From NCBI GenBank assembly GCA_010093605.1, contig MU004183.1, positions 2,611,114 to 2,675,113 on the forward strand: a stretch of 64,000 nucleotides of DNA. The letters run 5' to 3'. The stretch is from Lophium mytilinum. Lineage: Eukaryota > Ascomycota > Dothideomycetes > Mytilinidiales > Mytilinidiaceae. The number at the start of each line of letters is the position of its first letter. The stretch's first letter is position 1. The notes under the pieces were generated by a model. It was given only the letters and a program-made list of their open reading frames with translations, made no database searches and was not told the origin of the DNA. A program made the translations under genes and the position numbers. Shown in pieces: positions 37,917-59,911 of this stretch.

Positions 37917-39691
37917 TCACTCCCCCACCTCACGATCATCCTGCCAATGAGCAAACTTCCTCACGAACGACCAGTTCCACGTTGTACGTCGAATGCCTTT
38001 CCCGAAGAAATACAAAGGAATTGCAAAGAGAATAACAACACTTGCTATGCCGGCCATTGATCCAAATGCTTTGGTATACCCTAAACTATCAATCCATGGG
38101 TTTGTGTAAAACGAGAGAAGGAAGCCAAATGCCGCTAAATCGATGTTAGATCTGTGACACGCGTCGGAACGCAAAGGCTTGCTTACCCTTGAATACTAAT
38201 TGCGACACGGCTACCTCGCCAGCAGCAGGTCTGTAGCAATCGATAGTGTACACCAGGGACACGCTCGTTAGCTGCACAATCGCGAAGTTCAAACATCCCA
38301 GCCCTAATGTTGGCACCATCCAGTGTAGCTGGTTGTTAATACCAACACCGTAAAGGATAAGAGCAACCGGGACAAAGATGCCACCAATCACCACTGCCGG
38401 AAGCCTCATTTCCGGCTCGCGCAGGCCTCCATTCCGCTTTGTAAACCAATCGGCAGTCCAATCAGAAACGCGGCCGCCGAAAGTTATTGCGATGAATGAG
38501 CCTATGATGGAGGAAATGAAACAGAGACCAGATTGCCATGGCGCGAAGTTATAAGTTGCAGCAAATGCACTTGCGAAGTTCGAGGTGATGGCGACAAGAA
38601 ATCCTATGGTGACGGACATGACAAGGGACGCCCAAAGGACTGGTGGCAGTAAAACGAGACTGATCGGTCGGAGAAAGATCCTCCACAAAGGCTCAGAAGT
38701 GTATGTGCCTGTGAAAATCCTAAGAGAGCTAAGATAGGATCTGCTGGGAGGTAGCTGTCGGCGGTAGGCATCTGCACTCCCTAGTTCCAATTCCAGTCTA
38801 TTCTCGAGATGTGTAGCAGTGTCCGAGAGCTTTTCACCTTCATCGACGACAACACCTACAGGTATAATCTCAATCGACTGCTCCTGGCCGCGCATGAAGG
38901 TGGTTTCGGGGAATGTAAAGATTACCAGGATCGTTGTAAGGCCTGTCAGAGCCGTTCCGACGTAAAAGATATAGCGCCACGACAAAGTCTTCACAATCAG
39001 ACCACTGATGACAATCCCGCCGCCAACGCCCATGGAAAGGGCCGCAGTATACATGGCCATGATGGATCCACGTTCGTGCAGAAAGAAAATATCTGCAATC
39101 GTCAAGGGTCCTAGGCATTCCCCAGCGCCGCTAGCCAACCCCATGATGACTCGACCAGCGAGTTCCACTCCGTACGACTTAGTGACACCGCACCAGATGG
39201 CAGTGGCAGTGTAGATGACGAACGAGATGATGTATACCGGGCGCCGACCGTACTTGGCAATAAACGGCATCCAGAATAGCATGCCCATACCCTGGCATAG
39301 AGCGGGTACTGTGTAGAGGTAGGCAGTCGTCGCGATGTGAGCTGGCATGTTTGGGCCGGGTGGACCGAAGAAACTTTCTGTCATTGACACAATTGCAACG
39401 CTAGGACCGGCGGCTAAGAAGTTGGTCATGAACATGGCAAAACACACTAGTACTGCTATGTAGAGGCGGTAGGCCTTGGACCTGTGTCTTGTCAGTCGGT
39501 ATTCTGTAAGAGAACCTCCGAAGTTTCGATTAGCGAGGCGGTAGTACGGCATACCAGTTGAGAGGATCATTAGGATTAGACGAGGGCGTAGGAATTAGGA
39601 TGATCTCGTTTGTGTCGAGATGTCGCAGCTGGATGCTGCCCAGATTTTGAAGCTTTTTCCGGGCATGACGGTTGATATGATCTTCCTCCAT
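37917..39691 (-). CDS. MFS transporter, DHA1-like
   Basis: Exons 39691-39555, 39481-38187 and 38134-37917 (introns 73 and 52 bp) encode 549 residues. The start was chosen at MEEDHINRHARKKL, because the frame upstream has no ATG. A hydrophilic N-terminus carries PSSNPNDPLNW, followed by twelve helices: AVLVCFAMFMTNFLAAGPSV, a KYGRRPVYIISF loop (motif A), and GRVIMGLASGAGECLGPLTIADIFF. A central loop of about 60 acidic residues follows (EIIPVGVVVDEGEK). The second half includes WTADWFTKRNGG and the C-terminal helices. Relatives in fungi export or import small organic acids, drugs and metabolites. Its place at the edge of the oxidative gene run suggests it moves the substrate or a product. That is inference. 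Confidence 0.9.
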
Positions 39692-40538
39692 CTCATACGG
39701 AAGCACAAAGTGGGTATTCAATTTCGAAATCTTTGGGTTACCGATGGTGAAGAGTCTGATCTACTGCAAGACTCGGATGGAGGTTGTGGAGGTTTTCTAT
39801 CTCTTCAGGGTCGTGGGCATTACGCTCGTGGAGAAGAGTTATGACTCGTGCCAAAACACTATGCAAGGAGGGCTAGTCCTCGGGATGTGGTCGGGAGGCC
39901 GGCAGTTACTTCGTAGCGACCTCCACTCCGTAGCCCACGACAAGAAGCGCCGAGCACATTCCGGGGCATAGAATGAACATCCGGGAAATTTGAAATCTAC
40001 AGCAAAACCTCAGTATAGTAATACCGGTGTATATTGATATTATCGATACAGTAACATGAGTCGCCAGATTGTATAATTCACCTCCTATATTCCTGGCTCT
40101 CCGCTTAGTCTGGTAACACTAAACCCCTCTTATACAACATCATACTAATCGGGCATGGTTTTGTATGGGAGAGTGGTCCGTGGCACCTCAAAAGCCTTTT
40201 CTTGGGCTGTTTTGGGCCAGCCTATCTTACGAACTAATAGTACGTGACAGTTTGTATAGTAATATTTTCTATACAGTGATAATACCCAGTCTCCGACCCG
40301 ATCACTAAAGAGGTTTTACTGTACCACCCTAATCGTTCTCCACATTTCTCCATGTGGGGTACCCCGGAAGATGGGGTACCCCGGAAGATCTGCGCTTCAA
40401 GAGCCGTGTTTACTGCAGCCCGCTTTGAGATACTCTCTCGCCAGCCAATCAAAACCCTATATGTTCAACGTTGACATCCGTGCACTTTTTTGGTATTTAT
40501 GGTGGGATGAATTAGATTGATAATATCCAGTACACTAT
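39692..40538. other. Intergenic region with short tandem palindrome
   Basis: 847 bp of promoter for the MFS gene and 3' flank of the SDR. Short frames show nothing. A conspicuous 17-bp tandem repeat near 40,355 is listed separately. Confidence 0.5.
40355..40388. repeat. 17-bp tandem duplication with GGGGTACCCC palindrome
   Basis: TGGGGTACCCCGGAAGA occurs twice head-to-tail (40355-40371, 40372-40388). Each unit contains the 10-bp palindrome GGGGTACCCC next to CCGGAAG. It lies about 660-700 bp upstream of the MFS start codon. Paired palindromes invite comparison with regulator sites (Zn2Cys6 proteins bind CGG repeats), but no such binding is known here. Confidence 0.85.
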
Positions 40539-57642: not shown

Positions 57643-57903
57643 TGCATGAATAGTTGAGTTAGGGTACACTGAAGAGCCAGTCTATTTGAAGACCACTACA
57701 AGCATATGACTGCTCCGATGCAAGCTTAAATATCATGCAATACCACTCCTTTATTCAAGTTAGATCTAGCCAGGCGTTCAATTGAACTCTTCACACTGTA
57801 ATGGCATGAGGAAGTTATACAAGGTGCTACTATTTTGAGCTGCATGCTATGTAGCCTCTGATCCCAGATCTTGATCGCGGTGCTCGCTCAACTCATCAGC
57901 ATA

Positions 57904-59911
57904 TCAGGCTGGCGGAATGATAGGAAGGACGATGTAGTTCGGCGATGTTGAGCCAAAATGAATGTGGTTCATTCCGTCGAACTTCTCTTGACTCCTGCGA
58001 TGATGTGAGAACAAGCTTTGGATGGATGCTTGGAGCAAGGCGACTTACCTATCAGCTGGATCATTATGCTGGAATCTGTCACAACCCTGCGTGTCACCAG
58101 AAGCGACTTCAAAGATGATCTTCCCTCCCTTCTCAGCTACCACATTCGTCGGCCATATTTCGACGTCTACGGCATAGATCTCTCCAGGGATGACTGGTTG
58201 GGTGTCTTTGCTCGTATAATGTCGATAAGGTAGCCACGGCCGATCTTTGGGGTGGTTGGGATCTGTGTTGCGCAAACTAACTCGGAGCCAGCCTTTTGTC
58301 AAGGGCACAGGATCACCTGCCGTACCAGTGTAGTGCACTTCCTTGCCCTCAGGAGAGATGTACCGGAGTGTGATGAACAAATCGATGTCCGTCGGAACCG
58401 TTTTGTTATTTGGGTAAGGACTCACTGAGACGTTCAGATGCGCTACGACGTGGCCCGTGATTTCGGTATCGGCATCAAATGGCGCGGTCTCAAATTGGAC
58501 GGTTTGGGGATTTTCTAGCGTTCCGAGAGCTTGGTATGAAAGCTTCCTTTGCTCCCTGTTCGGCTCATTTTGCGACAGTCTTTTTTCCGGTGTGAGGTAG
58601 AACTTCGAATAGCGAGTGCGTGCTATCGGCCACTCGCTTTCGCTCCTTCGGTGGTACTTTTGCTCTCCTTCGGCGTTGTTGTATCCAACATCACCCTGGC
58701 GAAGTATCAAACTGACAGGAGGAACTTTGCCCTTCACGGTCCACCCTTCCCGATCGTCCCCTTTAAGAAAAGCGTCGAGGAAGCTGCGCTGAACCTCAGC
58801 TTCGGCTTTGTAGTAGAATGGTAAGTCGTGGCGCCCCGTGATGAAACGTAAGTACTTCATGTCGGAACCTGCCCACGTATAACCTTGAACATTCCCGCGA
58901 AGATGCAGGCAAATACCTCCCCAGTTCGCGACGCTCAACAAAGGGACTTGGATGTCGCTCATAGAATACTCTTTCGACGCATAATACGGATCGTCCCGAT
59001 ACTTGAACATCGCATTATCTTTGGTCTGATCCTGCCGGTTGCTCACGAGTTCGGCTTCGGGAAGATCTCCTTCGATGGTATCTGGCCCCCATTTGCGAGC
59101 AGCTCTGCCTCCTCCGCCGTACTGATTCGAAACCACTTGGCGATCCCACCAGAACTTGATGAACCCATTGGACAATATTCCACCCTGCCGGCATCGATCG
59201 CGGTAGTAGTCAGACATGCCCTCCCATGGGATGATTGCAGACAGGCCTTTTGGCTGACGAGCTGCAACACGCCATTGGCTTCCACCATAGTAACTATCCC
59301 ACAGCTTCTTAGTCAATGGCCTCAGAACAGAGCTGGAGATGCCTTACCTGATACCAAGCAAGCCCACTTTGCCTGAAGACCAAGGCTGTGCTGCTGCCCA
59401 TTCGACCACGTCGACAAACGCGTCGCTGGTGCCACGCGACATGGTATCTAGGAGACCTGGGGACTGCCCACATCCTCGCTCGTCTGCGCGGACAACTGCA
59501 TAGCCATGGCTAGTCCAAAAGCCTGGATCTGGGACTTCCCAAGCTGAGTGGGCTGACTTATGCTCTGGGTTGACCTCGGCGAACGAGTTTGGATGGAAAC
59601 TGAGAATCGTTGAAATTTAGCGCTTGTGCTTGCTATAGGGGTCTTTTCTCCTTTTGAAAGTGATGAGAGGTTCTGCATTGCTGCTTTAATCTCTTGGGGC
59701 ATTCTTACTCCTCGTAGGGGATGTCTTTTCCGTACGGTCCATAAGTGACAATGACGGGGACCTTGGAGTGTTCCCCCGAGCTCTTCGGTCGATAAACATT
59801 GCAGCGAACTAATCCTTCGCCTGCTTGAAGCTCAATGCTAGCATTTTGCTCAAATATATAGGCAAAGGAAGAGGAGTCAATTGTGTGAAGGTCTTTGATC
59901 GGGTTCGGCAT
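57904..59911 (-). CDS. CocE/NonD-type hydrolase (peptidase S15 fold)
   Basis: Exons 59911-59709, 59599-59348, 59293-58049 and 57994-57904 (introns 109, 54, 54 bp) encode 596 residues. The start was set at MPNPIKDLHT because the frame upstream has no ATG. The catalytic Ser152 is created across intron 2 in GLLGISYYGGSQW (GxSYxG). GYAVVRADERGCGQSPG precedes it, and a His is in ITGRHDLPFYYKAEAEVQRSFLDAFLKG. The C-terminal jelly-roll domain includes PPVSLILRQGD, TAPFDADTEITGHVVAHLNV and the family tail HNDPADRS then a short last exon. The family cleaves esters and amides (cocaine esterase, glutaryl acylase, Xaa-Pro dipeptidyl peptidase). Likely entry step: hydrolysis of an ester or amide substrate of the cluster. 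Confidence 0.92.

Follow-up and report, generated by a model that had tools for sequence, protein, structure and literature searches.

A gene block with conserved core linkage in Lophium mytilinum as a candidate catabolic cluster for an aromatic acid

A candidate catabolic cluster in Lophium mytilinum

We analysed a stretch of 64,000 nucleotides (the window) of the genome of the fungus Lophium mytilinum (Mytilinidiales, Dothideomycetes), located on contig C3 (2,719,435 bases) of a 43.18 Mb assembly of 24 contigs. The window holds ten solid genes within about 22 kb (37917-59911), which we read, with moderate confidence, as a cluster for the catabolism of an aromatic acid that may be imported as an ester and would be degraded by meta-cleavage. 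At its core are a flavin monooxygenase fused to an acetoacetate decarboxylase domain (FMO-ADC), a histidinol-dehydrogenase-like (HDH-like) enzyme and a DODA-type (LigB) extradiol dioxygenase. The genes, their families, the key residues and the conserved linkage of these three genes are matters of observation.

A preliminary description, made from the letters alone, had claimed an adjacent block of these families. Spliced gene models, with families assigned by Pfam and, for 8 of the 10 cluster proteins, by NCBIfam, confirmed ten of the genes, and the outer coordinates 37917 and 59911 proved to be the first and last coding bases of the models. Its assignment to aromatic catabolism held in so far as the linked genes are of catabolic type, the FMO has the corresponding kinship, the DODA histidines are present and a further locus of this kind lies on C3, whereas the ester and the membership of an aldehyde dehydrogenase (ALDH)-like protein found no support.

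Conserved linkage of the core genes in other fungi

Relatives were taken as the best 120 of 4493 (FMO-ADC), 8000 (HDH-like) and 749 (DODA) matches, and linkage was judged from equal lengths of the longest contigs and from locus-tag distance within these lists, not by reading gene order itself. Because clustering at 90% identity can merge strains, calls of different contigs may be false; P. nodorum, A. fumigatus, N. parvum and E. xenobiotica, represented by different strains in two lists, were left out of the judgement. Of 16 same-assembly species, 15 (among them Lophium) had FMO-ADC and HDH-like genes on one contig, a species being counted once if any copy was linked. This clustering exceeds chance, the expectation being 0.68 pairs, a rough guide that considers the 15 linked cases only and assumes a 40 Mb genome. 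For pairs of core genes, locus tags were adjacent in Clarireedia (011417/011418) and Chaetothyriales sp. CBS 134920 (g78/g77) and at most six apart in Rhinocladiella (10888/10882), Talaromyces pinophilus (01579/01577) and Sporothrix stenoceras, which had two loci (005983/005979 and 003910/003915).

DODA shared a contig with FMO-ADC in 11 records, including Lophium and one metagenome contig, and with the HDH-like gene in 7 cases. All three core genes were found on one contig in six records (Lophium, Lophiostoma, Lophiotrema, Baudoinia, Myriangium and Rhinocladiella), in Lophiostoma on a scaffold of 46.6 kb. The synteny search proposed for this trio in the preliminary description thus had a positive outcome, with DODA as the looser partner. 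T. pinophilus and S. stenoceras each carry two FMO-ADC copies, one with an HDH-like gene and the other with DODA; therefore, the block has modules.

A tree of 112 of the 120 FMO-ADC proteins (eight short ones were dropped, one of them DODA-linked) was not grouped by partner, with 9 changes compared with a mean of 8.6 after shuffling, and the linked copies were spread across both of its deep halves. This spread is compatible with an old linkage, although it falls short of proof.

Enzymatic features of the FMO-ADC fusion and the dioxygenase

The FMO-ADC gene (43558..45913, minus strand) encodes 711 amino acids in five exons (45761-45913, 45579-45711, 45453-45520, 44551-45394 and 43558-44495) with matches to PF01494 and PF06314. 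This corrected model contains the deposited 707-aa Lophium protein P0001 exactly; the Pfam, NCBIfam, solved-chain and relatives searches used a preliminary 728-aa model that differs in exons 2-3. The third intron (45395-45452) is of the GC-AG type, its donor (GCAAGT) having GC where GT is usual, and the deposited Mytilinidion relative was predicted differently there.

Among solved chains, the FMO part is nearest to decarboxylating vanillate and 4-hydroxybenzoate 1-hydroxylases: it scored 179.5 bits with the decarboxylative vanillate 1-hydroxylase 8x38, 171 with 8r2t, 142.6 with the 4-hydroxybenzoate enzyme 8gsm and 121.8 with salicylate hydroxylase. No NCBIfam cut-off was reached among the 25 best families shown. 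The ADC part matches 3cmb, the lysine of which aligns with Lys558. In ADC this lysine forms a Schiff base; the second lysine of clostridial ADC is leucine here. Lys558, Asp177 and Asp323 (P0001 numbering) are kept in 120 of 120 listed relatives. Since PF06314 is likewise present in all 120, the fusion is common in filamentous ascomycetes.

The DODA gene (50872..51802, minus strand; exons 51659-51802 and 50872-51606) matches PF02900 at 7.8e-8, and its product is 100% identical to the deposited Lophium protein P0241. It aligns with YgiD and 8in2, and its nearest solved relatives are 4,5-DOPA dioxygenases. The four histidines of DODA-type enzymes comprise three metal ligands and an acid-base histidine. 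All four are present here as His12, His49, His115 and His171 (P0241 numbering); the last three occur in 120 of 120 listed relatives and His12 in 105, the other 15 having gaps.

The histidinol-dehydrogenase-like enzyme and its bacterial relatives

The HDH-like gene (46584..48100, minus strand; exons 47786-48100, 47684-47730, 46931-47630 and 46584-46862) encodes 446 amino acids, matches PF00815 at 5.2e-133 and is 100% identical to the deposited Lophium protein P0121. It exceeds the TIGR00069 cut-off (433 vs 243.8), and its nearest solved relative is the sulfopropanediol 3-dehydrogenase HpsN (8v35; 364 bits), histidinol dehydrogenases scoring 253 bits. The zinc ligands and the Glu/His pair (Q251, H254, D353, H413, E319 and H320) were found in 120 of 120 listed fungal proteins. 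The same six residues also occur in the Lophium HIS4-type protein and do not separate the families.

Two further positions are more informative. His126 of HpsN is said to distinguish dihydroxypropanesulfonate (DHPS) dehydrogenases in the accessible text of PMC11382572. The equivalent position, taken from an alignment to a chain that numbers it His 127 with an assumed offset of one, is leucine in 120 of 120 listed fungal proteins, and in 79 bacterial relatives it is leucine in 78 and methionine in 1. The sulfonate-binding Lys353 of HpsN is lysine in all 120 fungal proteins and tyrosine in the Lophium HIS4-type protein. HpsN shares its zinc and catalytic residues and Lys353 with the HDH-like enzyme but differs from it in the diagnostic His126. 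Because His126 is replaced by leucine while Lys353 is kept, the HDH-like enzyme probably represents a third branch of the superfamily, with an acidic substrate bound through the Lys353 equivalent.

Identity with the HpsN DHPS 3-dehydrogenase was rejected on the basis of this leucine. A need for the gene in the histidine pathway was judged unlikely, since the second Histidinol_dh match of the genome lies inside a longer open frame on contig C12, as expected of HIS4. The listed fungal proteins are mostly labelled histidinol dehydrogenase or hypothetical protein; given the separate HIS4-type gene, the former name probably misstates their role. In PMC5371717, A. nidulans AN2723 carries a histidinol dehydrogenase annotation, which may refer to this gene or to HIS4.

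Bacterial relatives were collected with two short patterns, one of which holds His135, so that the constancy of this residue there is partly by construction. The set comprises the 80 best of 148 loci, of which 78 come from Actinobacteria, with identities of 60-68%, and two from bacteria of Chloroflexi type (56-58%). A quick tree placed 24 of the 120 fungal proteins in a single clade against 79 bacterial ones with a support of 99, which suggests one transfer for this branch, within the limits that sampling and the root set on the tree. Within about 6 kb of the bacterial genes we found LacI-like regulators (43 of 80 loci), short-chain dehydrogenases/reductases (SDR; 37), major facilitator superfamily (MFS) transporters (34) and 3-hydroxyacyl-CoA dehydrogenase-type genes (25), the first two named from one representative sequence each and the others by searches. 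The best NCBIfam match of the dehydrogenase was NF042925, a vitamin B6 breakdown enzyme, below its cut-off. These Actinobacterial neighbourhoods represent a bacterial pathway without an assignment. Import of the whole cluster from bacteria was rejected, relatives of the partner genes being nearly absent from the 80 loci: there was one weak FMO match (L052), one CocE match (L033) and one weak MFS match (L025). Matches to the two SDRs of the block, at about 30% identity, occurred in 43 and 42 loci.

Organisation of the block and its surroundings

The block begins on the left with an MFS transporter gene (37917..39691, minus strand; 549 aa; exons 39555-39691, 38187-39481 and 37917-38134; PF07690 at 2.5e-31), upstream of which a perfect 17-base tandem repeat with GGGGTACCCC palindromes lies at 40355-40388. 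It is followed by a single-exon SDR gene (40539..41330, minus strand; 263 aa), identified by its spliced model and Pfam, and by an FAD-linked oxidase of the EncM/BBE superfamily (41935..43335, plus strand; PF01565, FAD_binding_4). The nearest solved chains of the oxidase are 9p1o, 9p1p and EncM, and it has His72 and Cys130, which we take to be the flavin links. Beyond FMO-ADC and the HDH-like gene lie a small cupin (48745..49293, minus strand; 182 aa; one Cupin_2 match, PF07883; nearest solved chains 3es1 and 8x0u) and a second SDR gene (49633..50569, plus strand; 260 aa in four exons), again from its spliced model and Pfam. To the right of DODA, a spliced model of 916 aa with C2H2 fingers, Zn2Cys6 and Fungal_trans matches in Pfam represents the regulator (52119..54989, plus strand). 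The last gene encodes a CocE/NonD (S15) hydrolase (57904..59911, minus strand; 596 aa in four exons) with PF02129 and PF08530, a TIGR00976 score of 184.4 bits against a cut-off of 66.3, and Ser152 in a GxSxxG-type motif.

Between the regulator and the hydrolase lie the ALDH-like gene (55115..56842, minus strand) and a small open reading frame (ORF; 57098-57646) without a Pfam family. The ALDH-like protein of the preliminary description was borne out for its first exon, which matches PF00171 at 9.7e-8, but its membership is doubtful: the middle and last exons had no Pfam match and one clean splice was not found. The usual catalytic cysteine and Lys-Pro signature are presumably missing from its readable part. 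Five divergent gene pairs spaced by 315-604 bp had also been described; the range stands, but we found four pairs, measured from start codon to start codon: SDR/oxidase (604 bp), cupin/SDR (339), DODA/regulator (316) and ALDH-like gene/small ORF (315). Only two copies of CCTGCAGG occur in the window, one upstream of FMO-ADC and the other upstream of the HDH-like gene, against about one expected by a simple count. In agreement with the preliminary description, a Pfam scan of 30 proteins or exons of the window, with some small ORFs outside its scope, turned up no polyketide synthase (PKS), nonribosomal peptide synthetase (NRPS) or terpene synthase.

Several further features surround the block. 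Positions 1-4000 of the window form an AT-rich stretch of 28.6% GC, compared with 48-56% in every other 4-kb step, and may be a repeat island altered by mutation. A HET-domain gene lies at 31245-31922, to the left of the cluster. Matches to both Pfam halves (at 2.5e-51 and 4.4e-26) mark a Dyp-type peroxidase gene at 29353-30639 (plus strand), about 7 kb to the left of the cluster, which could act as a partner in the oxidation of lignin or dyes. The right neighbour of the CocE gene (61239-64000, minus strand) has an animal haem peroxidase match (61886-64000) followed by a P450 match (61239-61838), and presumably resembles fatty-acid diol synthases.

Relatives of the block genes elsewhere in the genome

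Some block genes have relatives with recurring partners in the Lophium genome. The best relative of the regulator is at C19:717239-719443 (195 bits; other genes at most 54) and that of the cupin at C19:720247-720750 (91 bits; others 75, 69 and 54), 0.8 kb apart. An NmrA/SDR-type gene lies beyond them at this locus, and a weak cupin relative occurs near an SDR gene on C16. Beside the only other CocE match in the genome (C3:1491561-1493314) lie a cupin relative (C3:1495891-1496133) and a match to the FAA_hydrolase domain (PF01557, 2.8e-34); with all three inside 5 kb, C3:1491552-1496151 looks like a second small catabolic locus. Membership of CocE and cupin in the block is supported because partners of the same kind recur elsewhere in the genome, one of them from a family common in aromatic catabolism. 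For the MFS transporter and the FAD oxidase, the own-genome search gave no comparable partner support. ADC was found once, with no further ADC gene in the genome search. In a six-frame genome search, PF02900 picked up five further LigB loci but not the DODA gene of the window.

Proposed pathway and competing explanations

From these families and residues we infer a substrate, an order of steps and each of the reactions. The MFS protein would import the compound, and the CocE hydrolase would release the acid from an ester; it is the CocE family alone that suggests the ester form. Hydroxylation by the FMO domain would take place at the ring carbon that carries the carboxyl group and would release CO2; the dihydroxy or trihydroxy ring so formed would be opened by DODA through extradiol (meta) cleavage. 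The keto-acid product may then be decarboxylated or hydrated by the ADC domain, which belongs to the same polypeptide as the FMO and carries the Schiff-base lysine. The oxidation would be completed by the SDRs and the FAD oxidase together with the HDH-like enzyme, the last through a four-electron alcohol-to-acid step at its zinc site, and the dual-finger protein would regulate the gene set.

Several observations weigh against this pathway. In Cirrosporium, the one exception to the linkage described above, FMO-ADC and the HDH-like gene lie on separate contigs. FMO-ADC and DODA are split in at least nine listed same-species pairs (Aspergillus spectabilis, A. fischeri, two Phyllosticta, Lecanosticta acicola, two Diplodia, Lasiodiplodia and Sarocladium); at least eight pairs of HDH-like gene and DODA are split likewise, which makes DODA the looser partner. 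The MFS, oxidase and SDR genes are assigned to the block by position alone, and a convincing common promoter motif was not found among the cluster genes. In bacteria, HDH-like genes commonly lie near genes for regulators, SDRs and metabolite symporters, and none of the 80 bacterial loci holds a relative of the window's ADC, DODA, cupin, FAD oxidase or ALDH-like gene. According to the accessible text of PMC10512348, growth of A. niger on gallate requires GacA, an FMO similar to salicylate hydroxylase, and persists after removal of 17 ring-cleavage genes. Because the 17-fold mutant still grew on gallate, a DODA gene need not imply meta-cleavage.

Part of this evidence fits a different arrangement, in which two adjacent modules with their own substrates, FMO-ADC with HDH-like on the one hand and DODA, cupin, regulator and CocE on the other, are joined by neighbourhood in Lophium and some other fungi. 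The separate pairing of the two FMO-ADC copies in T. pinophilus and S. stenoceras argues for such modules, as do the recurrence of regulator-cupin and CocE-cupin pairs in the Lophium genome, the single ADC and the HIS4-type nature of the other Histidinol_dh match. However, the six records with all three core genes on one contig and the interleaving of the Lophium genes over 22 kb speak for a common unit, and we regard two independent modules as possible but unlikely.

The block might instead make or tailor a pigment or another small, dearomatised molecule. Enzymes of the DODA type take part in the synthesis of betalains and oxidases of the EncM type in that of antibiotics, and the nearest solved relatives include EncM for the oxidase and 4,5-DOPA dioxygenases for DODA. 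Against this stand the lack of PKS, NRPS and terpene synthase genes in the Pfam scan, the FAA-hydrolase gene adjoining the CocE-cupin relatives and the kinship of the FMO with decarboxylating benzoate hydroxylases, and we consider a biosynthetic role improbable. Catabolism of a non-aromatic polyol or hydroxy acid centred on the HDH-like enzyme, as the LacI-like, SDR, MFS and 3-hydroxyacyl-CoA dehydrogenase-type neighbours in bacteria might suggest, is very unlikely given that in fungi FMO-ADC remains linked to the HDH-like gene and DODA partly so.

Comparison with known degradative gene clusters

The proposed aromatic catabolic block is a variant of known fungal degradative gene clusters. Cluster classes named after salicylate hydroxylase (SAH) and aromatic ring-opening dioxygenase (ARD) reportedly go back to Gluck-Thaler and Slot, 2018. 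In-silico surveys, as far as presented in the available text of PMC10735191, use these two enzymes as core genes and require other clustered genes with at most six genes between. Like such clusters, the window has a salicylate-hydroxylase-type FMO near an aromatic ring-opening dioxygenase with further genes alongside; three genes separate FMO-ADC from LigB, within the spacing rule, and clustering recurs in several species, as judged with our own searches and not with the survey's pipeline and query sequences. Unlike the window, the SAH/ARD clusters are described in the main text of PMC10735191 without mention of histidinol or acetoacetate. The preliminary description had called the gene set undescribed. 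No paper on FMO-ADC plus HDH-like was found in the open-licence literature searched. The term needs care because the core genes overlap with the SAH/ARD survey (PMC10735191, in the part available), and such a pipeline could flag a block that has both.

The gentisate cluster resembles the window in its MFS transporter, its FMO similar to salicylate hydroxylase or 4-hydroxybenzoate 1-hydroxylase, its ring-cleavage dioxygenase, C6 regulator and flanking ALDH (PMC3914699 and PMC8283699, accessible parts). Extradiol cleavage is named there for gentisate (PMC8283699). However, its ring cleavage relies on a cupin-fold gentisate dioxygenase and a fumarylpyruvate hydrolase, in place of the LigB/DODA enzyme of the window (same sources). 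Among our ten gene models there was no FAA_hydrolase match, and the 182-aa Cupin_2 protein was the only cupin. The tyrosine/homogentisate cluster (hppD-hmgX-hmgA-fahA-maiA-hmgR), as given in the available text of PMC3914699, recalls the second C3 locus, where CocE and cupin relatives flank an FAA_hydrolase gene, but its dioxygenases were not found among the window genes. The proposed route combines flavin-dependent hydroxylation with extradiol cleavage and a hydrolase. HcdB is a type I extradiol enzyme with a fold other than LigB. It belongs to hcdABC of Pseudomonas mandelii, which resembles the route in its flavin ipso-hydroxylase, extradiol dioxygenase and hydrolase but is of bacterial origin (PMC6222606, accessible part).

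Implications

We tentatively suggest, at a lower level of confidence than for the cluster itself, that fungi may possess a LigB/DODA meta-cleavage route in which a single polypeptide carries out both the hydroxylation of an aromatic acid and the processing of the keto acid from the opened ring, and in which a third histidinol dehydrogenase branch, gained once from Actinobacteria, might oxidise an alcohol intermediate that bears an acid group and is held in place by an invariant lysine. A conserved set of FMO-ADC, HDH-like enzyme and DODA would render such a fungal meta-cleavage route directly testable.

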